In this document: positions 4,244 to 15,966 of the stretch, one piece after another
Numbering within the stretch: the first letter of the stretch is position 1
How the letters are laid out: every line of letters begins with the position of its first letter
The notes under the pieces: generated by a model
Databases searched by the model: none
What the model was told of the DNA's origin: nothing
Seen by the model: the letters and a program-made list of their open reading frames with translations, nothing else
Assembly: GCF_000974785.1 (NCBI RefSeq)
Contig: NZ_BBWV01000002.1
Span: 124,001 to 188,000 of the forward strand
Direction of reading: 5' to 3'
Origin: Flavihumibacter petaseus NBRC 106054
GTDB lineage: Bacteria > Bacteroidota > Bacteroidia > Chitinophagales > Chitinophagaceae
Length of the DNA: 64,000 bases
Position numbers and translations under genes: made by a program

Positions 4244-4357
4244 CGGTCACCGGGTTACGATTACAACATTTTATTATCATTTAATTGTCAGGACGAACTA
4301 CCTGACCAGGAAATGACTGCGTCTTTATCTGTGATACTCACCTCATCAATTCGCAAC

Positions 4358-5566
4358 ATGATCTGCAAAATAATAGCATCCGCATTTGTCGTGCTGTCCG
4401 GAATTCCGGCTATCGCCCAGCAAACATCCTTCCAGCTGGATGGCAACATCAAAGGAAAGCCTGACGGGTATATCTACCTGAGTTATGAAAATACCGCGAC
4501 AGAAAAATATATCGTGGACAGTGCCAGGATCAGTGGCGGAAAGTTTGCGTTCAAGGGCGAACTGGATGGCCCGGTACAAGCGGTGGTCATGATGGACAAA
4601 AGAGGCGCTGATGGCAGGTACACCTATTTGTACCTGGTGCCTGCGAAAATGAAACTGACGTTGGACTACGCCAGTTTTAACCAGTCGGCTGTGCTGAAAG
4701 GATCGCCGATCCAGGACGAAGCCGATGTGCTGAAAAAGAGCCAGGCTGACATCAATGCACAACTGGATCCCCTGCGGAAAAAATACGACGAAGAAAATCA
4801 AAAGTACATAGCTGCCATCAAGGCAAAGAAGGATGAAGCAACGCTGGTGAAGCTGAAAGAAGAAGCGACCAAAGCAAAAGACGCGATGGATCCTTATTAT
4901 GAACAACTGAACAAAAAGCAGGCGGCGTTCATGGATCAGCATCCTGCTTCTTTCGTGACGGCATCCCTGTTGCGGTACAGTATCTCTTCCATGCCGCTGG
5001 CAGAAGGTGAAAAAAGATATGGACTGCTTTCTGCTGATATTCAAAACAGCAGCCTGGGCAAGGCGATCAGGAAAGAACTCGACGGCTTGCGCATGGGATC
5101 ACCCGGTGCGACCGCTTACGTGTTCGCTTCAAAGGAGCTGCGCGGACAGCTGCTGAGCCTGGCTGATTATAAAGGCAAATACGTACTGGTGGATTTCTGG
5201 GCGTCCTGGTGCGGTCCCTGCCGTAAGGGCAATCCCCACCTGCTGGGCTTGTATGCAAAATATAGAGACAAAGGACTGGAGATCATCGGCGTGTCGGATG
5301 ATGATGGTAAACCCGAGGCGTGGGCGAAGGCCGTGGAGCAGGATAAGATCGGCGTGTGGAAGCATGTGCTGCGGGGTCTGGACATGGACAAGCGGATGAA
5401 AGGTGAGCCGAATGAAAGCGATATCTCCAACTACTATGGCATTCACAGCCTTCCGACTAAAGTGCTGATCGATCCGAATGGTGTGATCATCGGCCGGTAC
5501 GGCGGCGGTGGAGAAAATGATGAGGCGATGGACAAAAAACTGTCGGAGATCTTTGGCGGCATCTGA
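4358..5566 (+). CDS. TlpA-family thioredoxin with N-terminal DUF4369 domain (copy 1)
   Basis: Periplasmic thiol-disulfide oxidoreductase. The ATG at 4358 gives a compact signal peptide ending IPAIAQ. An in-frame ATG at 4313 would add 15 residues and cannot be excluded. Residues of about 25-120 form the beta-rich DUF4369 region, followed by a charged helical linker, then an AhpC/TSA-type thioredoxin domain with the active site WASWCGPCRKG (Cys285 and Cys288 from the 4358 start). It follows susD by about 115 bp and heads a row of redox genes. Such TlpA proteins are normally re-reduced by DsbD or CcdA-type membrane proteins, and a dsbD lies 6 kb downstream. The client protein is unknown. Confidence 0.9.
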   Translation: MICKIIASAFVVLSGIPAIAQQTSFQLDGNIKGKPDGYIYLSYENTATEKYIVDSARISGGKFAFKGELDGPVQAVVMMDKRGADGRYTYLYLVPAKMKLTLDYASFNQSAVLKGSPIQDEADVLKKSQADINAQLDPLRKKYDEENQKYIAAIKAKKDEATLVKLKEEATKAKDAMDPYYEQLNKKQAAFMDQHPASFVTASLLRYSISSMPLAEGEKRYGLLSADIQNSSLGKAIRKELDGLRMGSPGATAYVFASKELRGQLLSLADYKGKYVLVDFWASWCGPCRKGNPHLLGLYAKYRDKGLEIIGVSDDDGKPEAWAKAVEQDKIGVWKHVLRGLDMDKRMKGEPNESDISNYYGIHSLPTKVLIDPNGVIIGRYGGGGENDEAMDKKLSEIFGGI

Positions 5567-5589: not shown

Positions 5590-6786
5590 ATGTACAAGTA
5601 TTGCTTCCTGTTCGCAGCATCACTCTGTGGGCTGCTGGCCTGTCAGAGTCCCGGCAGCAAAAAAGTGGATGACGCCTACGTCCTGAAAGGCACCATCAAA
5701 GGCCTGAAGGACGGAACGGTTAAGCTCTCCGCTTACAATGACGATGACCGCACGTCAACCGTGCTGGACAGCACCGTGCTGAAAGACGGCGGGTTTGAAT
5801 TTCGCGGAAAGACAGCAGCGCCACAGATGGTGACGGTTACGGCCGAGCCGGGCAACTGGTCTTTCAGGATCTTTCTCGAAAACCAACCGCTTGAAGTAAC
5901 TGCCGACACCACCGGCGCCATGCATTACGACTACACGATGTATGGCGAATCGAAGGGCGCGAGCATCACGAAATTCACGGAGTCGGGGTCTTCGAACTAT
6001 GACGCCTGGATGGCCTACCAGCAGGATACTGCGCAAAAGCAGTTTGACGGGCAACTGGAGGAACTGGGCAACAAGATCCAGGCAGAAAAAGATAAAGACC
6101 AGGAATACCGGTACCGCGACCAGGCGGACTCTTTACGAAAACTGGCAAACAACATCCGGCTCAGTACCGTGAGCAGATACATCAATGCAAACCCGGGTTC
6201 AGCGGCTGGTGCTTATATGTTACGGGACCTGTACAACTGGTATTCCGAAATGCCCCTGGCCGATATGCAAACGCTGGTGGCAAAATTCACGGGTGAAGCG
6301 AAACAGTCTCCCTACTATTCCAGCCTCGAAGGCATTGTGGCGAAGCGCAGGGCAGTATCACCCGGAAGCGTAGCGCCTGACTTTACTTTGTTGAAACGCG
6401 ATAGTTCAACATTCACCCTGTCTTCCCTGAGGGGGAAATATGTGATGATCGATTTCTGGGCAAGCTGGTGTCATCCCTGCCGGCAGGCGATCCCGCACTG
6501 GAAACAGGTGTATGCGAAATACAAGGACAAAGGTTTTGACATCCTGAGTGTTTCGGATGATTCACAGTGGAAGGCATGGTTCAAGGCAATGGACCAGGAG
6601 AAGATGCCGTGGACCCAGGTGTGTGATGAATTCCCGGTAAAGAATATGCCCGCGAGAGTAGGGTCATTGTACCTCACCCATTTTATCCCTTTCTATGTGT
6701 TGCTGGACAAGGAAGGAAAGATCCTGGTGTCTAGCGGGGACGAGAAAAAGATCGACGAAAAACTGGCTGAAATATTTGGCAGCTGA
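5590..6786 (+). CDS. TlpA-family thioredoxin lipoprotein with DUF4369 domain (copy 2)
   Basis: Second paralogue of the TlpA type, here a lipoprotein: the signal MYKYCFLFAASLCGLLAC places the lipidated cysteine at residue 18. The DUF4369-like domain (about residues 30-140) is followed by a helical linker and a thioredoxin domain with active site WASWCHPCR (Cys294 and Cys297 of 398). His replaces the Gly of copy 1 between the cysteines, a change that usually raises redox potential. It starts 23 bp after copy 1 and ends 21 bp before the next gene, so it belongs to the same transcript. Different active-site dipeptides suggest the paralogues are not redundant (inference). Confidence 0.9.
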   Translation: MYKYCFLFAASLCGLLACQSPGSKKVDDAYVLKGTIKGLKDGTVKLSAYNDDDRTSTVLDSTVLKDGGFEFRGKTAAPQMVTVTAEPGNWSFRIFLENQPLEVTADTTGAMHYDYTMYGESKGASITKFTESGSSNYDAWMAYQQDTAQKQFDGQLEELGNKIQAEKDKDQEYRYRDQADSLRKLANNIRLSTVSRYINANPGSAAGAYMLRDLYNWYSEMPLADMQTLVAKFTGEAKQSPYYSSLEGIVAKRRAVSPGSVAPDFTLLKRDSSTFTLSSLRGKYVMIDFWASWCHPCRQAIPHWKQVYAKYKDKGFDILSVSDDSQWKAWFKAMDQEKMPWTQVCDEFPVKNMPARVGSLYLTHFIPFYVLLDKEGKILVSSGDEKKIDEKLAEIFGS

Positions 6787-6807: not shown

Positions 6808-8316
6808 ATGCGATCACGAATCATTTTCCTGTTAGCCTGCCTGGCTGTACTGGCTGCGGGGCAGCTCGCTGCACAAAGCGGCTCAAAAACAAAACTGAAA
6901 GTGCTGTTTGTCGGCTATGACCCGTCAAAACCGGCACCTGAGACTAGCCGTTCTTATCCGGGTATGATGAGCAAAGAAGAATTTCTGAAAGAGTACCCGG
7001 TAAGGATGCCTGCTTTCAAAGCTTTGCTCAGCCAGTATTTTACGGAAGTGGCTACCGTTGACTGCCGTGACTGGAAGGCGGCGGATTCCGAGCCCTATGA
7101 TGTGACCATTTTCGATTTCAGAACCAAAGAACTCGAGCCCACGAGATGGGATACAACCGCAGACGGGGAAAGGAGATATATTTCCCCTCGCTACCTCCCC
7201 GACAATTTTTCCAGACCAGTAGTATTCATTGCCAGTACTGCCAGCGAAATGGGCGACAGGATCGGTTTGAAACTCGACTGGCTCTGTTTGTGCCTGGATG
7301 CTGATGCACATCACATGAATGCATCCCATCCCATTTTTAAAGGCCCGGTGAACAAAGTAACGCCAACGATGGTGATCAAGAATACACCGGAAGGAATCTA
7401 CCACTATGCATCAGGAGATACAGTTCCGAAACAGATCCCGATGTGGCGGGTGCAGAAGGACGGGTACATGGAAGGCAAGCCTGTTCGGATTGGCCTGGTT
7501 TCCCGGGGCAGCAGGTTTCTCGAAGGACCCGATGCAGAAGTGATCTCCAGCGGTGTGAACCAGAAAGATGTAACAGCAGTTGCATTGGCACGTCATGGCA
7601 ATTTCTTCCTGTGGGGATTCGGTGCTTCGCCAGCGGATATGACGGAGGAGGCAAAGCAGGTTTTCGTAAATGCTGTAGCGTACATGAAACAGTTTAACGG
7701 GAGAGTGCCCATTACCTTGAAGTACAGCCAGACCATGGCCACTACAGACAGGGTGAAAGAGATTCAACACAATCTTTCCCGCAAAGTTTACGAAGACTAC
7801 GTGCAACAGATCAAGGCATTCAATGAGCAAAGCGTAAAATCAAAAAAGGACCTGGACGAGAAGAAAGCAAAAGGTATCGCACTTACCTCATCCGAGGAAG
7901 AATCGCTGCAATACCTGGGCAATGAGCAGGCTATACCGACATGGGAGGAATTTTCTGCCATGATGATGGGCAGGTTCGCCCAACAGTTCAACGGTAACGT
8001 AGACGGGTTCAAAAAATACCTGAACGATAATATCGATTACGTGTATTGTGATCCTTATGGACACGACAGCTATACGATCGATACGCTGGTACAACAGATC
8101 GGTGTTTCCAACCACAGCATCAAACTGCTGGAAACCTGTATCAATATGCTGAAAGAAAACAAAAAACCGGACCTCGCACTGGCTGTGTTGAAAAAATATA
8201 CGCCGGAGAAATTTAATTCGGCGGCAGAATGGCAGCAATGGCTGAATAAAAACCGGAAGAAGCTGTATTTCACGGAAACCAGTGGTTACCGGTTCCAGGT
8301 CAATACCTACAACTGA
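6808..8316 (+). CDS. Secreted protein of unknown function in the redox operon
   Basis: A 502-residue protein with a clear signal peptide (MRSRIIFLLACLAVLAAGQ, cleavage after LAAQ near residue 23). The first 290 or so residues read like an alpha/beta fold of the ThuA/glutamine-amidotransferase-like kind (opening strand KVLFVGYDPS, later VVFIASTAS and FFLWGFGASP), but no catalytic Cys-His-Glu triad could be placed with confidence. The last 200 residues are mostly helical with a coiled-coil-like stretch (FNEQSVKSKKDLDEKKAKG). It lies between a TlpA gene and a DsbD-alpha gene, and its TGA overlaps the next ATG by one base (TGATG), so the two are translationally coupled. Function unassigned; an envelope role is implied by position only. 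Confidence 0.8.
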   Translation: MRSRIIFLLACLAVLAAGQLAAQSGSKTKLKVLFVGYDPSKPAPETSRSYPGMMSKEEFLKEYPVRMPAFKALLSQYFTEVATVDCRDWKAADSEPYDVTIFDFRTKELEPTRWDTTADGERRYISPRYLPDNFSRPVVFIASTASEMGDRIGLKLDWLCLCLDADAHHMNASHPIFKGPVNKVTPTMVIKNTPEGIYHYASGDTVPKQIPMWRVQKDGYMEGKPVRIGLVSRGSRFLEGPDAEVISSGVNQKDVTAVALARHGNFFLWGFGASPADMTEEAKQVFVNAVAYMKQFNGRVPITLKYSQTMATTDRVKEIQHNLSRKVYEDYVQQIKAFNEQSVKSKKDLDEKKAKGIALTSSEEESLQYLGNEQAIPTWEEFSAMMMGRFAQQFNGNVDGFKKYLNDNIDYVYCDPYGHDSYTIDTLVQQIGVSNHSIKLLETCINMLKENKKPDLALAVLKKYTPEKFNSAAEWQQWLNKNRKKLYFTETSGYRFQVNTYN

Positions 8317-8807
8317 TGAGAACTATCCTGATAGCACTACTGCTGGCGTCTTTGTCCGCCTCCGCGCAAAGTGAACTGGGCAAAAAGGTATCAGATGCCG
8401 TTCAGCAAATGAAAATGGACCCGCCCGCCGTGCAGGATCCGGTGGCACTGCGTGCCGGGACGGTGATCAGCGGTGATAGTATTGCCTATATCGTGAAAGT
8501 GGCGCTGGCGCCAGGCTGGCATATCTATTCCTATGTGCCGGACAACCAGCCCTATATTCCCATCGAGCATGTATTGCAATTGCCGGAGAATATCCGGGCA
8601 GTAGGCAAATGGGAGAAGACAAAGCCGACGGCCTCGGTAAATGACCCCGGTGTGCTGTTGTATGAGAAAGAAGCCGTGTTTGTGCAGAAGGCCGTGAAAG
8701 TGGCCGGCGCCAAGCCGGGCAAGACGGTGGTCGGATTGTATTACCAGGCCTGTGACCTGCGGCAATGCCTCCGGCCGGTGGAGAAGACAGTTGAACTGAA
8801 CAATTGA
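8316..8807 (+). CDS. Free-standing DsbD N-terminal (alpha) domain protein, copy 1
   Basis: Secreted 163-residue protein with a short signal peptide ending SASAQ. It matches the periplasmic alpha domain of DsbD (immunoglobulin-like thiol carrier): the family signature GWHIYSYVPDN in mid-protein and a C-terminal YYQACDLRQCLRPVEK segment with the redox pair Cys146 and Cys151. In full-length DsbD this domain accepts electrons from the membrane domain and passes them to periplasmic clients. Here it is a separate polypeptide without membrane segments. The start overlaps the previous stop by one base. It probably works with the DsbD encoded at 11005, whose own alpha domain lacks cysteines (see findings). 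Confidence 0.85.
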   Translation: MRTILIALLLASLSASAQSELGKKVSDAVQQMKMDPPAVQDPVALRAGTVISGDSIAYIVKVALAPGWHIYSYVPDNQPYIPIEHVLQLPENIRAVGKWEKTKPTASVNDPGVLLYEKEAVFVQKAVKVAGAKPGKTVVGLYYQACDLRQCLRPVEKTVELNN

Positions 8808-8853: not shown

Positions 8854-9978
8854 ATGAAAAGCATATTTCCCTTACTGGTGTTCCCGGCACTCGTCCTGGC
8901 CGAACCCGGAAAACCGCTCACCATCAAAGGAACGATCAAAAGTGCCGACCCGGTGAAAATGATCTACCTGAATTACAGCGTGGGCGAGGACAGGAAAAGC
9001 GATAGCGTAGCAGCTACCAAAGGACAGTTCACCATCAAAACAGCCCTGGAAGAACCGACCCAGGCCATGCTCACCATCAAATACGATAAGCCGGATGGAA
9101 AGACCAATACGCGGGTAGAGCGGAAAATGATCTTCCTTGAACCCGGCCAGATGACCATCAGGATCAAAGACTCCCTGCAAGGGGCCACCATATCCGGATC
9201 AAAGGCCAATGCTGAATTTGAAAAACTGAATAAACTGGGTGAGTCGTATGATGAGGCCATGCAGGCTTTGAATGAACCCTACTCAAAGTGTTATGAGCAG
9301 AAGGATGAGGAAGGCATGAAACGCATCATGGCACAGTTTGACAGCCTGTCGAAAGAAAAGAGCAATAAGGTCACCCTGCCGTATATCGTGAATAACGGGA
9401 ACTCACCGATCGCGCTGTACGTACTGAAGCAGTACGCCGGGTATGACCTGGATCCTGCGAAGGTGGAGCCCTTATTTGAAGCGCTTCCCGCCGGCACCAA
9501 ACAGTTGCCTTCCGGCATTGCCTTTAAGAACCAGATCGAGACGGCAAAGAAGACTGCCGTTGGCGCGTATGCACTGGAGTTTACCCAGAATGATACGCTG
9601 GACAAACCCGTGTCATTGTCCTCCTTTAGAGGAAAATATGTACTGCTTGATTTCTGGGCCAGCTGGTGCGGTCCCTGCCGCGCGGAGAATCCGAACGTGG
9701 TGAAAGCCTACGAGCAGTATAAAGACAAACAGTTCACAGTGCTCAGTGTGTCACTGGATCAGCCGGGAAAAAAACAGGCATGGCTGGACGCTATTCACAA
9801 GGATGGACTGACCTGGACACATGTAAGTGACCTGAAATTCTGGAACAATGCGGTGGCAAAACTGTACGGTATCCAGGCGATCCCGCAGAACCTGCTGATC
9901 GACCAGCAGGGAAAGATCATTGCCAAAAACATTACCGGGGAAGATCTTCACAAGAAGCTGGCTGAACTGCTTCCTTAA
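8854..9978 (+). CDS. TlpA-family thioredoxin with DUF4369 domain (copy 3)
   Basis: Third TlpA paralogue, 374 residues, with an exported N-terminus (MKSIFPLLVFPALVLA). The DUF4369 domain (about residues 20-115, including TIKGTIKSADPVKMIYLNYS) precedes a helical linker and a thioredoxin fold with active site WASWCGPCRAEN (Cys272 and Cys275) and the cis-proline region IQAIPQNLLIDQQGKI. It sits between the two free-standing DsbD-alpha genes, an arrangement suggesting these proteins exchange electrons (inference from order). A 97-bp gap follows. Confidence 0.9.
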   Translation: MKSIFPLLVFPALVLAEPGKPLTIKGTIKSADPVKMIYLNYSVGEDRKSDSVAATKGQFTIKTALEEPTQAMLTIKYDKPDGKTNTRVERKMIFLEPGQMTIRIKDSLQGATISGSKANAEFEKLNKLGESYDEAMQALNEPYSKCYEQKDEEGMKRIMAQFDSLSKEKSNKVTLPYIVNNGNSPIALYVLKQYAGYDLDPAKVEPLFEALPAGTKQLPSGIAFKNQIETAKKTAVGAYALEFTQNDTLDKPVSLSSFRGKYVLLDFWASWCGPCRAENPNVVKAYEQYKDKQFTVLSVSLDQPGKKQAWLDAIHKDGLTWTHVSDLKFWNNAVAKLYGIQAIPQNLLIDQQGKIIAKNITGEDLHKKLAELLP

Positions 9979-10075: not shown

Positions 10076-10528
10076 ATGAAAAAAGTCCTTTTGCTGGCAT
10101 TCGGACTGATGGCCCTGAATGTGCTGAATGCCCAGGTGAAGAATCCGATCCAGTGGGCCTTTGCTTCCAAAGCGATTGATGCGAACACCTATGAAGTATC
10201 CATGACTGCCAATATTGAAAACGGCTGGCATATCTATTCACAGACTACGCCAGAAGGCGGCCCGATTCCCACCGAAATCTCCTTTGCGAAGAACCCGCTG
10301 GTGAGCCTTGTGGGTGCGGCAAAGGAAGTGGGCAAAATGGAGCAGCGCCGCGAGGAACTGTTTGGCGTGGACGTAAAACAGTTTTCGGGGAAGGTGGTAT
10401 TCGTGCAGTTGGTGAAGCTGAAGGGGAAAGCCAAGACAGCATTGACGGGCAGCGTCTACTTCATGACCTGTAATGACCATGAATGCCTGCCGCCCGTTAC
10501 CAGGAAATTTGAGATCGCCCTGAATTAA
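10076..10528 (+). CDS. Free-standing DsbD N-terminal (alpha) domain protein, copy 2
   Basis: Secreted 150-residue protein (signal MKKVLLLAFGLMALNVLNAQ) that again matches the DsbD alpha domain: NGWHIYSQTTPEGGPIPTEI in the middle and the redox segment YFMTCNDHECLPPVTRKF with Cys132 and Cys137. The two cysteines have the same four-residue spacing as in copy 1. It begins after a 97-bp gap that contains a T-run, so it may have its own promoter. The next gene follows after 11 bp. The likely role is to carry reducing equivalents from the DsbD membrane domain to TlpA-type proteins or other envelope thiols. Confidence 0.87.
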   Translation: MKKVLLLAFGLMALNVLNAQVKNPIQWAFASKAIDANTYEVSMTANIENGWHIYSQTTPEGGPIPTEISFAKNPLVSLVGAAKEVGKMEQRREELFGVDVKQFSGKVVFVQLVKLKGKAKTALTGSVYFMTCNDHECLPPVTRKFEIALN

Positions 10529-10539
10529 CTGCCCATCGC

Positions 10540-10857
10540 ATGAGAATTGTAACTGCGCTGTTTTGTTTACTGGTGGTGGGTTTGTCCGCCTGCCGTTCCA
10601 GCCTGGCCGACAACGCAAAGGTAGGCGGCCGGCGAACCTTTTATGTGGAGGTGCAGAACGGGGAGCAGGTAGTCAATATGGTTGCTGATTGCTGTGCGCG
10701 GCTGGACGTGACCAGGATGGAAACGAAGACCATCCGGCAAACAGCGTGGACCAGCACGGTCTGGATAGAGGTGGAATTCCGCTCTACGCGGCAGGAGGAT
10801 ATCACCGCGGCCAAAGCCTGCATCTCACGACTACAAAATGTGAAAACCGTGAAGTGA
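10540..10857 (+). CDS. Small cysteine-containing lipoprotein of unknown function
   Basis: A 105-residue protein with a lipoprotein signal (MRIVTALFCLLVVGLSAC, lipidated Cys18). The mature part alternates strands and helices (FYVEVQNGEQVV, then VWIEVEF, then AAKACISRL), compatible with a small ferredoxin-like fold, but no family is recognised. It has a vicinal Cys51-Cys52 pair (ADCCARL) and Cys94. It starts 11 bp after a DsbD-alpha gene and precedes dsbD, so a part in thiol transfer is plausible but unproven. Confidence 0.75.
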   Translation: MRIVTALFCLLVVGLSACRSSLADNAKVGGRRTFYVEVQNGEQVVNMVADCCARLDVTRMETKTIRQTAWTSTVWIEVEFRSTRQEDITAAKACISRLQNVKTVK

Positions 10858-10986: not shown

Positions 10987-11004
10987 CTGATAATTGTGTC
11001 GATC

Positions 11005-13026
11005 ATGAAGTTTGTTCGTGCGTGTGGTAGCGCGTTATTGATCCTTATTGCTTTTACAGTGCATGCAGCGGACTCCACCGCACTGCAATTGCAACTGAAT
11101 AAGACGCGGATCAGTGATGCCGAAGTGCTGTTGTCCATCAAAACAGTTATCCCGAAGGGGATGAAAGTATATGCCTTGCAAACCAGCGAAAGCGATGCGC
11201 TGTATTCGGCCATCAGCTTTGACAGCGCGTTCCTTGGACGGTTAAATGGCAAAGTGGAGGAGAAGGGAAAGCTGGAGCAGGAGAAAGACGCTTCGCTGGA
11301 TGCGGTGGTAAAGTTTTATTCCGATACCCTGCTGTGGCAACAGAGAATAAAAGCCGCACTGACCGAAAGCCTCGTGCTGAAGGGCAGTATCAACTATATG
11401 TACCGTTCCGGTGATCTGTATCTGCCGGAAGAGAAGGCTTTCAAATTTTCCATTAAGCCGGAAGAACAGCAGGTAACGACAGGCGCTGCAGCCAGTCAAA
11501 AGGGCGTGGAGCATCAGTCCCTGTTGTGGATCTTCTTCACCGCATTTGGCGGCGGACTGCTCGCCTTGCTGACGCCCTGCGTGTACTCCATGATTCCCGT
11601 TACGGTAAGCTTTTTTACGAAGAGAAGTAAAACGCGTGCAGAGGGCATCCGGAATGCCCTGTACTATTCTTCTTCGATCGTGATCATCTTTACGCTGCTG
11701 GGTTTTCTGACCACACTCATCTTTGGCCCGGCTGCATTGAATAACCTGGCCACCAACTGGATCGCCAACCTCCTCTTCTTTGTCTTATTCGTGGTGTTCG
11801 GGATTTCCTTCCTCGGCGCTTTTGATATAGCGCTGCCATCATCCTGGACGAATAAGGCTGACAGCAAGGCAGGCAGCGGAAACTTCCTGGGCATTTTCTT
11901 CATGGCGCTTACATTGGCGTTGGTGTCTTTCTCCTGTACGGGACCGATCATCGGCAACCTGCTCGTGCTGGCAGCCAAAGGCAGCTACTGGGGACCGCTT
12001 ACCGGCATGTTCGGCTTCTCCCTCGCGCTCGCATTACCCTTTGCGCTGTTTGCCTTCTTTCCTTCCAAACTAAACGTATTGGGTAAAGCAGGCGGATGGC
12101 TCAATTCAGTGAAAGTGACGCTCGGGTTTTTAGAGCTGGCGCTCGCGCTGAAGTTTTTGTCCAACGCCGACCTGGCCAAAGGCTGGCGCCTCCTCGACCG
12201 CGAAGTATTCATCGCTGCCTGGGTAGTGATCTTCGGATTACTGGGCCTGTACCTGCTCGGCAAACTGAAATTTCATCACGATGACGAGCTTCCTAAAAAT
12301 GATTTCGGTTTACCCTACCTGAAAGTATCGCGGCTCCTGTTTGCCATGTCGTCTTTCATCTTTATGGTGTACATGATACCGGGCCTCTGGGGTGCGCCGT
12401 TGAAGGGCATCTCCGCCTTTGTTCCGCCCATGGGCACGCAGGATTACAATGCGTCGGCAGCCACCGCCAGTATCGTTCAGCCATCAGCCACCACACCTAA
12501 GGAAACCGCCATGCATCCTTCCAAATATTATGAACGGATGCGCATGTACGAGCCCGAAGTAGTCACCAAATACGGCATGGTCACTTACTTCGATTACCAG
12601 GAAGCACTCGAAGCCTCCCGCAAACTGAAGAAGCCGTTGATGCTCGACTTTACCGGCATCAACTGCGTCAACTGCCGCAAGATGGAAGGGCAGGTGTGGA
12701 GTGATCCTGAGGTAATGAAAAGACTGAAGGAAGACTTTGTGATCGTCTCCCTCTATGTGGATGTGCACAATATCGATATCCCTGAAGGCGAACAATATTT
12801 CTCCAAAGTGCTGGACAAACAGGTGGAAACCCTGGGCGATCTCAATGCCGACCGCCAGGTGACCCACTTCGGTGCCAATACCCAACCCTACTATTTCTTC
12901 CTGGACGGCAACGAAAAGCGCCTGGCACCGGAAGGCTATGGCTATGATCCGGACATTCCCAAATTCATTCAGCTGCTGGACCAGGTAAAGGCAGCCTATC
13001 AACAGAACATTTCATCTGTCAAATAA
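11005..13026 (+). CDS. dsbD: DsbD-type thiol:disulfide interchange protein with a cysteine-less alpha domain
   Basis: Inner-membrane protein moving electrons from cytoplasmic thioredoxin to the periplasm. The ATG at 11005 gives 673 residues and a signal peptide ending VHAA; a GTG three codons upstream is less likely. Order: N-terminal alpha-like domain (about 25-155), eight-helix CcdA-like membrane domain with Cys192 (LLTPCVYSMIP) and Cys311 (FSCTGPIIGNLL), then a C-terminal thioredoxin domain with Cys554-V-N-Cys557 (NCVNCRKME). The alpha domain is odd: where free-standing relatives read CNDHEC or CDLRQC it reads RSGDLY (residues 134-139), so both redox cysteines are missing. The beta and gamma cysteines are intact. 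A conserved palindrome lies upstream. Confidence 0.92.
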   Translation: MKFVRACGSALLILIAFTVHAADSTALQLQLNKTRISDAEVLLSIKTVIPKGMKVYALQTSESDALYSAISFDSAFLGRLNGKVEEKGKLEQEKDASLDAVVKFYSDTLLWQQRIKAALTESLVLKGSINYMYRSGDLYLPEEKAFKFSIKPEEQQVTTGAAASQKGVEHQSLLWIFFTAFGGGLLALLTPCVYSMIPVTVSFFTKRSKTRAEGIRNALYYSSSIVIIFTLLGFLTTLIFGPAALNNLATNWIANLLFFVLFVVFGISFLGAFDIALPSSWTNKADSKAGSGNFLGIFFMALTLALVSFSCTGPIIGNLLVLAAKGSYWGPLTGMFGFSLALALPFALFAFFPSKLNVLGKAGGWLNSVKVTLGFLELALALKFLSNADLAKGWRLLDREVFIAAWVVIFGLLGLYLLGKLKFHHDDELPKNDFGLPYLKVSRLLFAMSSFIFMVYMIPGLWGAPLKGISAFVPPMGTQDYNASAATASIVQPSATTPKETAMHPSKYYERMRMYEPEVVTKYGMVTYFDYQEALEASRKLKKPLMLDFTGINCVNCRKMEGQVWSDPEVMKRLKEDFVIVSLYVDVHNIDIPEGEQYFSKVLDKQVETLGDLNADRQVTHFGANTQPYYFFLDGNEKRLAPEGYGYDPDIPKFIQLLDQVKAAYQQNISSVK

Positions 13027-13032
13027 GAACCC

Positions 13033-15966
13033 ATGCGAATAGTAAGCACCTTCCTGCTGCTGATGGCAATGGCTGTCTCGCTCAAAGCCCAGAAGGGTAT
13101 TGAGTGGAAGCAGGCAACAGCAGGCGGATACACCTACCGGTATGTCACCAACGACCCGATGGGCGCCCGGTTTTATACCCTGAAGAACGGCCTGACCGTC
13201 ATCCTGTCCAAAAACACTAAAGAACCCCGTGTTGCGGTACGCGTTGCCGTACGGGCAGGCAGTAACAGTGATCCTGTTGATCACACCGGCCTCGCACACT
13301 ACCTCGAACACCTGCTGTTCAAGGGAACCGACAAATACGGTTCGCTGGACTGGTCAAAGGAAAAACCCCTGCTCGACCAGGTGGAAAAACTCTACGAACA
13401 GTACAATAAGACAACAGATCCTGCCCAACGCAAAACCATCTATCAGCAGATTGACCAGGTTTCCGGCGAAGCCGCCAAATATGCCATTGCCGGTGAATAC
13501 GACCGCATGATGAAAGTGCTGGGATCACAAGCCACCAATGCGCATACCTGGGTAGAAGAAACTGTCTACGAGGAAGACATTCCCGCCAATGCGATGGACA
13601 AGTTCCTGGCCATCCAGGCAGAACGTTTCCGTTACCCCGTCTTCCGCATTTTCCATACGGAGCTCGAAGCGGTGTATGAAGAAAAGAACCGCGGGCTGGA
13701 CAATGACGGCAACAAGATGCAGGAAGCCATGTTCTCTTCTATATTTCCAACCCACCACTACGGGCAGCAGACGACCATCGGCACCATTGAGCACCTGAAG
13801 AACCCCTCCATCGTGGCCATCCGGCAATTCTACGACAAGTTCTATGTGCCCAACAATATGGCCATCATCATGGCCGGCGATTTCAATCCCGACGAACTAG
13901 TCGCTAAGATCGACAAGCAGTTTGCTTTTATGCAACCGAAGCCGGTGGAGGAATACAAAGGCCCGAAAGAAGCGCCGATCAACGGCCCCGAGGTCAAGGA
14001 AGTTTTCGGACCATCTGCAGAAAGTGTACGCCTCGTGTATCGTGCACCGGCGGCCGGAACCCGCGATGCCATGCTGGCCGACCTCGCCAGTTCGGTGTTG
14101 AGCAATGGCAACGCCGGACTGATCGATCTGAACCTGAACAAGCAGCAAAAAGTGCTGGGTGCGGGAGCAGGACTGTGGCAGTACCGGGACTATGGTATTT
14201 TCTTCCTGGTGGCTTCACCCAAGCAGGGGCAGACCCTGGAAGCTGCGAAAGACCTCCTGATGGGCCAGTTGAATGACCTGAAGAACGGCAACTTCGAGGA
14301 GTCGCTGATCCCGGCGATCGTGGCCAATTCCAAACTTAATGAATTGCAGGGCCTCGAAAACAACGGCAACCGCGTGAATCAATTGATGGATGACTACATC
14401 AAATCAAAAGGGGCGAGCTGGAACAAGAACGTCGCCATGATCGATGAAATGAAGAAGGTATCCAAAAAAGAGTTGTCCGATTTCGCGAAAGGCTTCTTCA
14501 CTGATAACAACTATGTTATCCTTTACAAGCGGAAAGGAGAAGATAAAAATGTGACTAAGGTGGACAAGCCACCGATTACGCCGGTGGAAACCAACGAAGG
14601 AAAAACCTCGCCTTTTGTAGCGGCGGTCATCGAATCCAAACTACCCGCCGTGAAGCCGGTATGGATCGACTATGATAATGACCTGCAGAAACGCCAACTC
14701 AACAATGCTGAACTGTTGTATGTGCCCAATAAGGAGAATGGTTTATTCCGCCTGACTTACCAGTTCGATATGGGTGGCTGGAACAACAAGCTGTTGCCCA
14801 TTGCTGCACAGTACCTGGAATACCTCGGTACAGACAAGTTGACCTCAGAAGCCATCAGCAAGCAGTTTTACAATCTCGCGTGCAGCTTCGACGTGCAGCC
14901 GGGAGATGATCAGACGGCCATCACCATCAGCGGCCTGGGTGAGAATTTTGAAAAAGCCGTACGGTTGTTCGAAGACCTGATCCGGAATTGTCAACCTGAT
15001 GCCGAAGCGCTGGAGAACCTGAAGGCTACAATTCTTAAAGCAAGGGCCAATAATAAACTAAACAAGGGATCAATTGCCCGGGGATTACAATCCTATGCTT
15101 ATTATGGTGCACAGAATCCCTTCAATTATGTATTGCCGGAAGCCGCACTGCAGGCCCTGAAACCGGAAGACCTGACGACCATCCTGCATTCGCTGTTCAA
15201 CTACCAGCATAAGATCGGCTACTATGGACCGCTCTCTTTGACTGCCTCTTCGGGCAGCCTGAAGAACCTGCACCCGTTACCGGGCAGCTGGACTTCGGCA
15301 CCGGCACCGGTAAAATTTGAGCGGATCACGCAGGGAAGCAACAAAGTATTGTTTGCCAATTACGATGCAGTGCAGAGCGAGATCTTCTGGGTAAGGTCAC
15401 TGTCAAAATATGACCCGAAAAATGAAGCACTGGTGAATGTGTTCAACAATTATTTCGGTGGGGGTATGGGTACCATTGTGTTCTCGGTGATACGGGAATC
15501 AAAAGCCCTGGCCTATTCCACCTATGCTTTTGTGAACACGCCTTCCCGGAAAAGCGATCCGTTCTCCTTTGTGGCTTATGTGGGTAGCCAGGCCGATAAA
15601 ATGAATGATGCGATCAAGGCAATGAACGAATTGCTGAATGACCTGCCGCAGGTGGAGCAGGGATTCACCAATGCACGCACAGGTTTGATGAAAGATATGG
15701 AGACCGACCGAATCCAACCCAATGCGATCATCGCCAGTTACCTCAATGCGCAGCGCAAAGGAATAACGGTTGACCAGCGGCAGGTAAACTACGAAGCCTA
15801 TAAAAACATTACGCTGAACGATCTCGATGCCTTTCACCGGGAAAAATTATCACAGCAGCCATACACGTATTGTGTGGTGGCATCGGATAAGAAGGTCAGT
15901 CTGGATGACCTGAAAAAATACGGTGAGCTGAAAGTTTTAAGCCTGGAAGAGATTTTCGGCTACTGA
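13033..15966 (+). CDS. Secreted M16-family zinc metallopeptidase
   Basis: Pitrilysin/insulinase-type peptidase, 977 residues, with a signal peptide (MRIVSTFLLLMAMAVSLKAQ). The inverted zinc motif HxxEH is present as His89-Tyr-Leu-Glu92-His93 (GLAHYLEHLLFKGT). The third ligand probably lies in ELEAVYEEKNRG (residues 210-220), farther away than usual because of a roughly 45-residue insertion rich in charged helices. The C-terminal half has the second, catalytically dead M16 repeat, including FGGGMGTIVFSVIRESKALAYS. It starts 6 bp after dsbD and ends the + strand cluster. M16 peptidases in Bacteroidota degrade imported peptides in the periplasm, which fits a SusCD system taking up peptides (inference). 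Confidence 0.93.
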   Translation: MRIVSTFLLLMAMAVSLKAQKGIEWKQATAGGYTYRYVTNDPMGARFYTLKNGLTVILSKNTKEPRVAVRVAVRAGSNSDPVDHTGLAHYLEHLLFKGTDKYGSLDWSKEKPLLDQVEKLYEQYNKTTDPAQRKTIYQQIDQVSGEAAKYAIAGEYDRMMKVLGSQATNAHTWVEETVYEEDIPANAMDKFLAIQAERFRYPVFRIFHTELEAVYEEKNRGLDNDGNKMQEAMFSSIFPTHHYGQQTTIGTIEHLKNPSIVAIRQFYDKFYVPNNMAIIMAGDFNPDELVAKIDKQFAFMQPKPVEEYKGPKEAPINGPEVKEVFGPSAESVRLVYRAPAAGTRDAMLADLASSVLSNGNAGLIDLNLNKQQKVLGAGAGLWQYRDYGIFFLVASPKQGQTLEAAKDLLMGQLNDLKNGNFEESLIPAIVANSKLNELQGLENNGNRVNQLMDDYIKSKGASWNKNVAMIDEMKKVSKKELSDFAKGFFTDNNYVILYKRKGEDKNVTKVDKPPITPVETNEGKTSPFVAAVIESKLPAVKPVWIDYDNDLQKRQLNNAELLYVPNKENGLFRLTYQFDMGGWNNKLLPIAAQYLEYLGTDKLTSEAISKQFYNLACSFDVQPGDDQTAITISGLGENFEKAVRLFEDLIRNCQPDAEALENLKATILKARANNKLNKGSIARGLQSYAYYGAQNPFNYVLPEAALQALKPEDLTTILHSLFNYQHKIGYYGPLSLTASSGSLKNLHPLPGSWTSAPAPVKFERITQGSNKVLFANYDAVQSEIFWVRSLSKYDPKNEALVNVFNNYFGGGMGTIVFSVIRESKALAYSTYAFVNTPSRKSDPFSFVAYVGSQADKMNDAIKAMNELLNDLPQVEQGFTNARTGLMKDMETDRIQPNAIIASYLNAQRKGITVDQRQVNYEAYKNITLNDLDAFHREKLSQQPYTYCVVASDKKVSLDDLKKYGELKVLSLEEIFGY

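Follow-up and report, generated by a model that had tools for sequence, protein, structure and literature searches.

It was found that the DsbD encoded in the window (the whole 64,000-nucleotide stretch of DNA that was analysed) carries a fused alpha domain without redox cysteines. DsbD is a membrane enzyme that delivers reducing power to the outside of the cell. Comparison with related genomes suggests that the last relay step of this DsbD conduit has moved to a separate polypeptide, a free alpha domain acting in trans, and that the fused alpha domain is non-redox; we give this reading a probability of about 80%. It is strongly supported by comparative evidence from the Chitinophagaceae, in which fused alpha domains without the cysteine pair are called dead, those with the pair live, and DsbDs with no fused alpha domain absent.

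The window DsbD and its neighbours

The DsbD (11005–13026, + strand) comprises 673 aa, and an alternative GTG start lies at 10996 (+). The beta cysteine pair in a DsbD_TM fold (PF02683, 8.3e-26) was found as Cys192 in LTPC (11578–11580, +) and Cys311 in FSCTGP (11935–11937, +), and the C-terminal thioredoxin-like gamma domain (Thioredoxin_7, 1.3e-11) has its CxxC as CVNC at residues 554–557 (12664–12675, +). Numbered from the ATG at 11005, the full list of cysteines is 7, 192, 311, 554 and 557, and Cys7 falls within the N-terminal signal-peptide-like stretch, so that the alpha redox pair is missing. The site of the lost C-x4-C reads RSGDLY (residues 134–139; 11404–11421, +), compared with CDLRQC in the free alpha protein at 8316 and CNDHEC in that at 10076. 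The first-pass annotation had reported these motifs and the retained beta and gamma cysteines, and residue counting confirmed its numbers. The protein is a DsbD by its domains and by two of three redox centres, with the defining alpha cysteine pair absent. It scored 130.4 bits with the NCBIfam DsbD subfamily NF001419, below the cut-off of 330 bits; it is not a CcdA, which is beta alone, since it carries gamma and the alpha fold. By the comparisons below, it probably works like a DsbD only jointly with its neighbour.

The fused alpha region (residues 24–156; 11074–11472, +) is, as modelled, a genuine alpha domain with the nDsbD fold intact. The AlphaFold model, which was built with 37 relatives likewise lacking the pair, had a mean pLDDT of 94.3. 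Its best match in VIA-align was DsbD-alpha 1jzd_C (Z 11.1, rmsd 3.0, 108 residues aligned); the E. coli and Neisseria nDsbD entries gave Z of 10.0–11.1, and the next unrelated fold 7.9. The top match in Foldseek was 6dps_E, a Neisseria nDsbD. A Pfam DsbD_N search at E 0.1 did not detect the fused domain. In the profile alignment RSGDLY falls in the cysteine columns, with "RY" where the free domains show "CC"; because of this alignment and the modelled fold, displacement of the alpha cysteines is not indicated. A shift of the cysteines within the domain was ruled out, as there is none between residues 7 and 192, and the alignment check for alpha cysteines elsewhere in the domain found none displaced. 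Among the 100 dead fused domains collected below, 94 have no cysteine at all and 6 a single stray one.

A single-cysteine linker motif, P..DCG, was observed between alpha and TM1 of other DsbDs (e.g. L022, L029, L032, L114). Of the 100 dead DsbDs, 56 have it; among live DsbDs it was seen in 1 of 28 from the Chitinophagaceae and in 4 of 68 from elsewhere. As a general replacement redox site it was rejected on these counts and because the window DsbD does not have it.

The gene order on the + strand is a SusC-like TonB-dependent receptor (Plug domain), a SusD-like protein, two DUF4369/TlpA-like thioredoxin-fold proteins (4313–5566, CGPC; 5590–6786, CHPC), a 502-aa protein (6808–8316), a free alpha domain (8316–8807), a third DUF4369/TlpA-like protein flanked by both free alpha domains (8854–9978, CGPC), a second free alpha domain (10076–10528), a 105-aa lipoprotein-like ORF with no Pfam match (10540–10857), the DsbD and, immediately 3' of it, an M16 peptidase (13033–15966). 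The three TlpA-like proteins are possible clients. An M16 homologue is also close to DsbD in some relatives (L263, L266, L269).

The 10076 protein is the proposed general trans partner. It has a signal-peptide-like start, its only cysteines are those of CNDHEC (residues 132–137), and it scored 35.3 bits with DsbD_N (PF11412), above the curated cut-off of 25. With 66–67% identity to the free alpha domain beside the orthologous DsbD in genomes G077 and G105, it is, by sequence, the orthologue of the putative general free-alpha partner.

The genome of the window (5.69 Mb, 22 contigs) encodes a second DsbD, whose fused alpha domain likewise lacks the cysteine pair. Pairing of the window DsbD with another, live-alpha DsbD of the same genome was rejected, the second one being dead too; for the same reason the pairing of the window DsbD with its free alpha domain is not exclusive. 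The second dsbD has a free alpha domain of its own (G000:C19:192296-194680, L033) and lies beside a glutamine-amidotransferase gene (GATase_5), presumably purQ; a similar protein adjoins several other Chitinophagaceae dsbD genes.

Dead fused alpha domains and free alpha domains across genomes

DsbD matches were obtained in 38 of 39 genomes of relatives (rows of G024:C111, G026, G029, G030 and G036 left out) and in 113 of 117 Chitinophagaceae genomes, where every listed place was read; no DsbD match was obtained in the other 4 of these 117. In the phylum sample 99 of 148 genomes had a match, and 67 loci or regions were read (27 + 40), some repeating family genomes. Before counting, four TM-only proteins were removed, as were L001 (a duplicate) and any copies that were truncated or identical to another row. 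This gave 205 distinct DsbDs, mostly from related genomes: 100 dead, all in the Chitinophagaceae; 96 live, 28 in the family and 68 outside; and 9 without a fused alpha domain, 4 in the family and 5 outside. In the places read outside the Chitinophagaceae, no fused alpha domain without cysteines was seen. Among the live DsbDs, L201, L206, L207, L213, L223 and L258 were classed after correction of the TM start, L235 was assigned by hand (C-x6-C), and L203, L209 and L218 contain C-x6-C with only the first cysteine column aligned. Because the same loss is present in 100 of the 205 distinct DsbDs, family-wide, it is not a matter of chance or sequencing error, and a sequencing error or local frameshift in the window DsbD was rejected.

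One DsbD, L230 (G272), was counted as absent in the class counts and in the independent-pair test below and was later set aside, which brought the absent class from 9 to 8, the dead or absent cases from 109 to 108, and those with an adjacent free alpha domain from 101 to 100. Its alpha and its alpha-less DsbD lie in overlapping frames and resemble one fused gene split by a frameshift. It is a probable split gene, because the DsbD has no signal-peptide-like start and the free alpha has an odd end.

The TM-only proteins (L129, L130, L137 and L154, in G019, G133, G117 and G074) are DsbD paralogues of ∼370–385 aa without alpha and gamma. Both beta cysteines are gone (FTPY for FTPC, SST for SCT), and the same genomes hold a live DsbD; as read from the sequence, such a paralogue is a redox-dead conduit.

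In all 108 cases with a dead (100) or absent (8) fused alpha domain, a free C-x4-C alpha domain was found in the same genome. It was located within 600 nt upstream on the same strand in 100 cases, at ∼5 kb in G063, and elsewhere in seven (G017, G118, G109, G131, G056, G050 and G092). Both cysteines were present in 101 of 101 free alpha domains adjacent to dead or absent DsbDs, L230 included and with no preselection. An adjacent free alpha domain was found for 18 of the 96 live DsbDs, "none adjacent" meaning none in the stretch read, as the 1,500-base flanks cover only ∼1 kb upstream. Ten Chitinophagaceae genomes had a single detectable alpha domain, by per-genome match counts among the best ≤33 candidates per genome (G019, G138, G122, G133, G078, G074, G142, G045, G042, G140); it was always the fused one, and its cysteines were kept in 10 of 10.

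A second, named sample of 40 loci, which partly overlaps the first (e.g. Niabella, Lacibacter, Paraflavisolibacter, Flavisolibacter, Pinibacter), contained 31 loci without the pair, of which four have a broken DsbD reading frame, as well as 8 live loci and 1 fragment. A free cysteine-bearing alpha domain was adjacent in 24 of the 31 dead loci and elsewhere in the genome in 6, and the genome of the remaining locus, L302, also holds one elsewhere; 4 of the 8 live loci had an adjacent free alpha domain. In Niabella defluvii (CP079215.1; L301, L302) the frames of both DsbD and the adjacent alpha are broken, and an intact free alpha is encoded elsewhere. A cysteine-less domain with no free alpha domain was therefore seen in 0 of 108 cases and 0 of 31 named loci, which supports the earlier proposal that the relay step is supplied in trans.

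A dead fused alpha domain would leave gamma without a partner in cis, which makes the free alpha domain the obvious partner. It might alternatively be supposed that the alpha step was dropped, gamma reducing TlpA-like clients directly, the fused alpha being unneeded and the free alpha doing something else. The TlpA-like thioredoxin-fold proteins adjoining the window DsbD fit this idea, as does the interaction of the alpha-less Legionella LpDsbD2 with its client DsbA2 (PMC4491210); but it predicts neither a free cysteine-bearing alpha in 108 of 108 dead or absent cases nor the higher conservation of free than of fused alphas in dead clades (see below), and we regard it as highly improbable.

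Free alpha domains beside live DsbDs (the 18 of 96) may have an older, separate job. The arrangements form a graded series: two fused alpha domains with cysteines, in some other families of the order (L015–L020, L032, L221, L227); a free and a live fused alpha (L012); a free and a dead fused alpha, in the Chitinophagaceae; and a free alpha with no fused one, in the 8 DsbDs of the absent class. In these 8, gene fission may have turned the once-fused domain into the free alpha.

Two exceptional free alpha domains were noted. In L015 (G033) the free alpha has lost one cysteine (SxxxxC) and both fused alphas are intact, which is the reciprocal of the window case and is as expected if the alpha copies are interchangeable. 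The third free alpha of G056 (L191, G056:C15:29460-29846) has lost both of its cysteines.

Repeated origin and shift of constraint

The tree and the tests on it point to at least four origins of the cysteine-less fused alpha domains. In a 96-row quick tree of the TM-gamma part, with the alpha columns excluded, the dead rows require 5 changes; on well-supported branches the minimum is 4 for dead and 3 for absent, counts that alone cannot separate loss from regain or domain replacement. Loss was preferred because all fused alpha domains read outside the Chitinophagaceae keep their cysteines. Grouping of all dead rows as a single clade was rejected (p-AU 0.0006), as was that of the window clade with the L164 clade (p-AU 1.7e-5), a group chosen after inspection of the tree, both on trees of the "quick" kind; with these values and the at least 4 forced changes, a single ancestral cysteine loss was rejected. 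In 7 independent pairs from a 206-row tree, in a set from which neither L230 nor a truncated copy of the window row had yet been removed, the free alpha domain changed in the same direction in 5.6 on average and in the opposite direction in 0 (median p 0.03, range 0.016–0.25), the phylogenetically independent evidence amounting to these 7 pairs.

By pairwise identity, the selective constraint once on the fused alpha domain has shifted to the free one. In four dead clades picked by hand from the tree (4, 6, 17 and 19 rows), similarity was greater among the free alphas than among the fused ones in 6/6, 15/15, 134/136 and 171/171 pairs, and in the live sister clade of the window clade (11 rows, also hand-picked) in 11/55, all of these pairs being non-independent. 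A second comparison, by bins of TM identity, drew on the DsbDs that have a free alpha next to them (94 dead, 16 live); these free alphas had been preselected for both cysteines, so that cysteine invariance there is no evidence. At TM identity of 65–75%, gamma identity was equal in the dead and live sets (59.6 and 59.8%), whereas fused alpha identity was 28.8% among the dead and 47.8% among the live DsbDs. For the latter, three of the four bins showed lower conservation of the free alpha than of the fused one; the exception was the 65–75% bin (8 pairs; free 50.7%, fused 47.8%), which runs counter to a general swap.

The dead fused alpha domain still seems to be under purifying selection. The dN/dS ratio could be estimated in 8 of 12 close pairs and was 0 (L022/L030), 0.055, 0.09, 0.105, 0.124, 0.154, 0.211 and 0.269, with dS unsaturated in only three of them (0, 0.055 and 0.269) and saturation inflating the ratio. 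Among the rows, L095 and L096 come from different loci of the same genome, and their TM parts hardly differ.

The description of the domain as a structural remnant, offered in the first-pass annotation, is on these ratios (all below 0.3, mostly with saturated dS) probably too weak. That it is a decaying, functionless remnant would agree with its being the fastest-diverging part of the protein and with the 8 DsbDs that have no fused alpha at all. We consider it unlikely, however, as the dead domain persists in 100 DsbDs of at least four lineages, compared with 4 Chitinophagaceae members without one, the estimable dN/dS values are low, and the second cysteine position is occupied by a bulky hydrophobic residue (F/Y/I/V) in 91 of 93.

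The same persistence and apparent purifying selection, together with the intact nDsbD fold, are compatible with an active docking or capping module that holds gamma or recruits free alphas and clients, with several shuttles competing; extra alphas such as 8316, whose relatives are fused to their partner in two genomes, also agree with it. On the other side, a His found in every free partner (94 of 94) is kept in 12 of 94 dead fused domains, and the NPL motif conserved in the free partners is mostly lost from the dead ones; because of these losses, the dead alpha shows no obvious conserved face for binding gamma like that of nDsbD. Some DsbDs, moreover, manage without a fused alpha. Such a module is conceivable, and we propose it only tentatively.

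The electron path and the second free alpha domain

In DsbD, electrons pass from thioredoxin to beta, gamma and alpha, and on to clients, according to PMC7347389 and PMC4460558; the first-pass annotation had given the order as gamma to beta to alpha, which is wrong. As electrons run from beta through gamma to alpha, it is on gamma that a free alpha must dock. In the relay in trans, electrons from cytoplasmic thioredoxin would reach the beta cysteines Cys192 and Cys311, pass to Cys554 and Cys557 of gamma, and go on to a free secreted alpha, in the main 10076, by reduction of its C-x4-C disulfide, bypassing the attached alpha. The free alpha would then diffuse to its clients in the periplasm, for which the TlpA-like proteins encoded in the same operon are the probable candidates, and the fused alpha might be retained for stability, docking or gamma shielding. 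Diffusion of a reduced alpha is chemically plausible because in E. coli a cap loop shields the alpha cysteines against the oxidising periplasm (PMC7347389).

The window DsbD shares its domain order, its beta and gamma cysteines and its alpha fold with the DsbDs of E. coli and Neisseria, and the cysteine pair of the window's free alphas is like that of nDsbD (C103/C109). In E. coli, however, the relay is in one chain, whereas in the window the fused alpha lacks the pair and the active alpha would be a separate secreted protein. The intramolecular gamma-to-alpha step is regarded as integral to DsbD, although laboratory-split domains of E. coli DsbD reportedly work in trans (Katzen and Beckwith), alpha being able to act as a separate polypeptide; unlike that construct, the window arrangement is natural and a dead alpha copy is still attached. 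ScsB has two Ig-like domains in tandem, just one of them catalytic, and both in one chain with the conduit, whereas the active alpha of the window is free. The N-terminal domain of Proteus mirabilis ScsB (6c29) has an nDsbD-like fold, with Z of 10.2 to the window fused alpha. CcdA, as a beta conduit, passes electrons to separate periplasmic proteins, as proposed for the window; unlike the window DsbD, it is described in PMC4491210 as lacking alpha and gamma. By the same source, Legionella DsbD2 is alpha-less and, like the window DsbD, has no attached redox-active alpha, but in the genomes read here with a dead or absent fused alpha a free one was always found, and a dead alpha is usually retained. 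A literature search, with most subscription papers outside it, found no account of DsbDs whose fused alpha domain is dead and is accompanied by a free partner.

In the Chitinophagaceae the gamma-to-alpha step has seemingly been uncoupled repeatedly, with a separate active alpha at hand each time, and the final transfer in a textbook electron relay has apparently become a detachable part. These DsbDs are natural systems for asking what alpha does beyond its cysteines, how far the relay tolerates periplasmic diffusion and how a conduit is shared among clients. They also carry a warning for annotation: they look complete by domain count, the terminal redox site is missing, and a small neighbour probably carries it.

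The earlier proposal had "one or both" of the small alpha proteins supplying the step. As the general partner 10076 fits it; 8316 is an uncommon additional alpha linked to the 6808 protein. It contains no cysteines other than those of CDLRQC (residues 146–151). This protein is divergent, scoring 24.6 bits with DsbD_N (PF11412) against the cut-off of 25, with a predicted nDsbD fold (pLDDT 93.9; Foldseek top match nDsbD 6dnv_B, 1.2e-5). Free-standing relatives were found in 6 others of 394 Chitinophagaceae genomes, directly downstream of a 6808 homologue in 6 of 6, as in the window, where the stop of the 6808 gene overlaps the start of 8316. A TlpA-like gene follows in 3 of 6 loci, in the short stretch read. 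In G440 and G353:C10 (L330, L332) a 6808-like protein carries a cysteine-bearing alpha fused at its C-terminal end. Because it is rare, always behind a 6808 homologue and fused to it in two relatives, 8316 is read as cassette-bound and probably serves specifically as an adapter for the 6808 protein, its candidate partner, or for its TlpA-like neighbour. Two electron branches, via 10076 and 8316, are plausible on this comparison.

More broadly, DsbD in the Chitinophagaceae might be modular: a beta-gamma conduit, a dead alpha as a docking or gating platform, and interchangeable free alpha shuttles, either general (10076 type) or cassette-dedicated (8316 with 6808 and a TlpA-like protein), the expressed shuttle setting the client. 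This model is speculative, and we would not lean on it; if it were true, electron flow to different clients would be set by which alpha shuttle is expressed.

The 6808 protein itself looks secreted and presumably resembles ThuA/GATase-like proteins; in a Pfam search its best match had E of only 0.59, with no named family. In G136 the 8316/6808 cassette and dsbD are on different contigs. With the shorter G136 frame left out, all 8 of the 6808-like proteins inspected, the window's included, contain the motif CLCLD.
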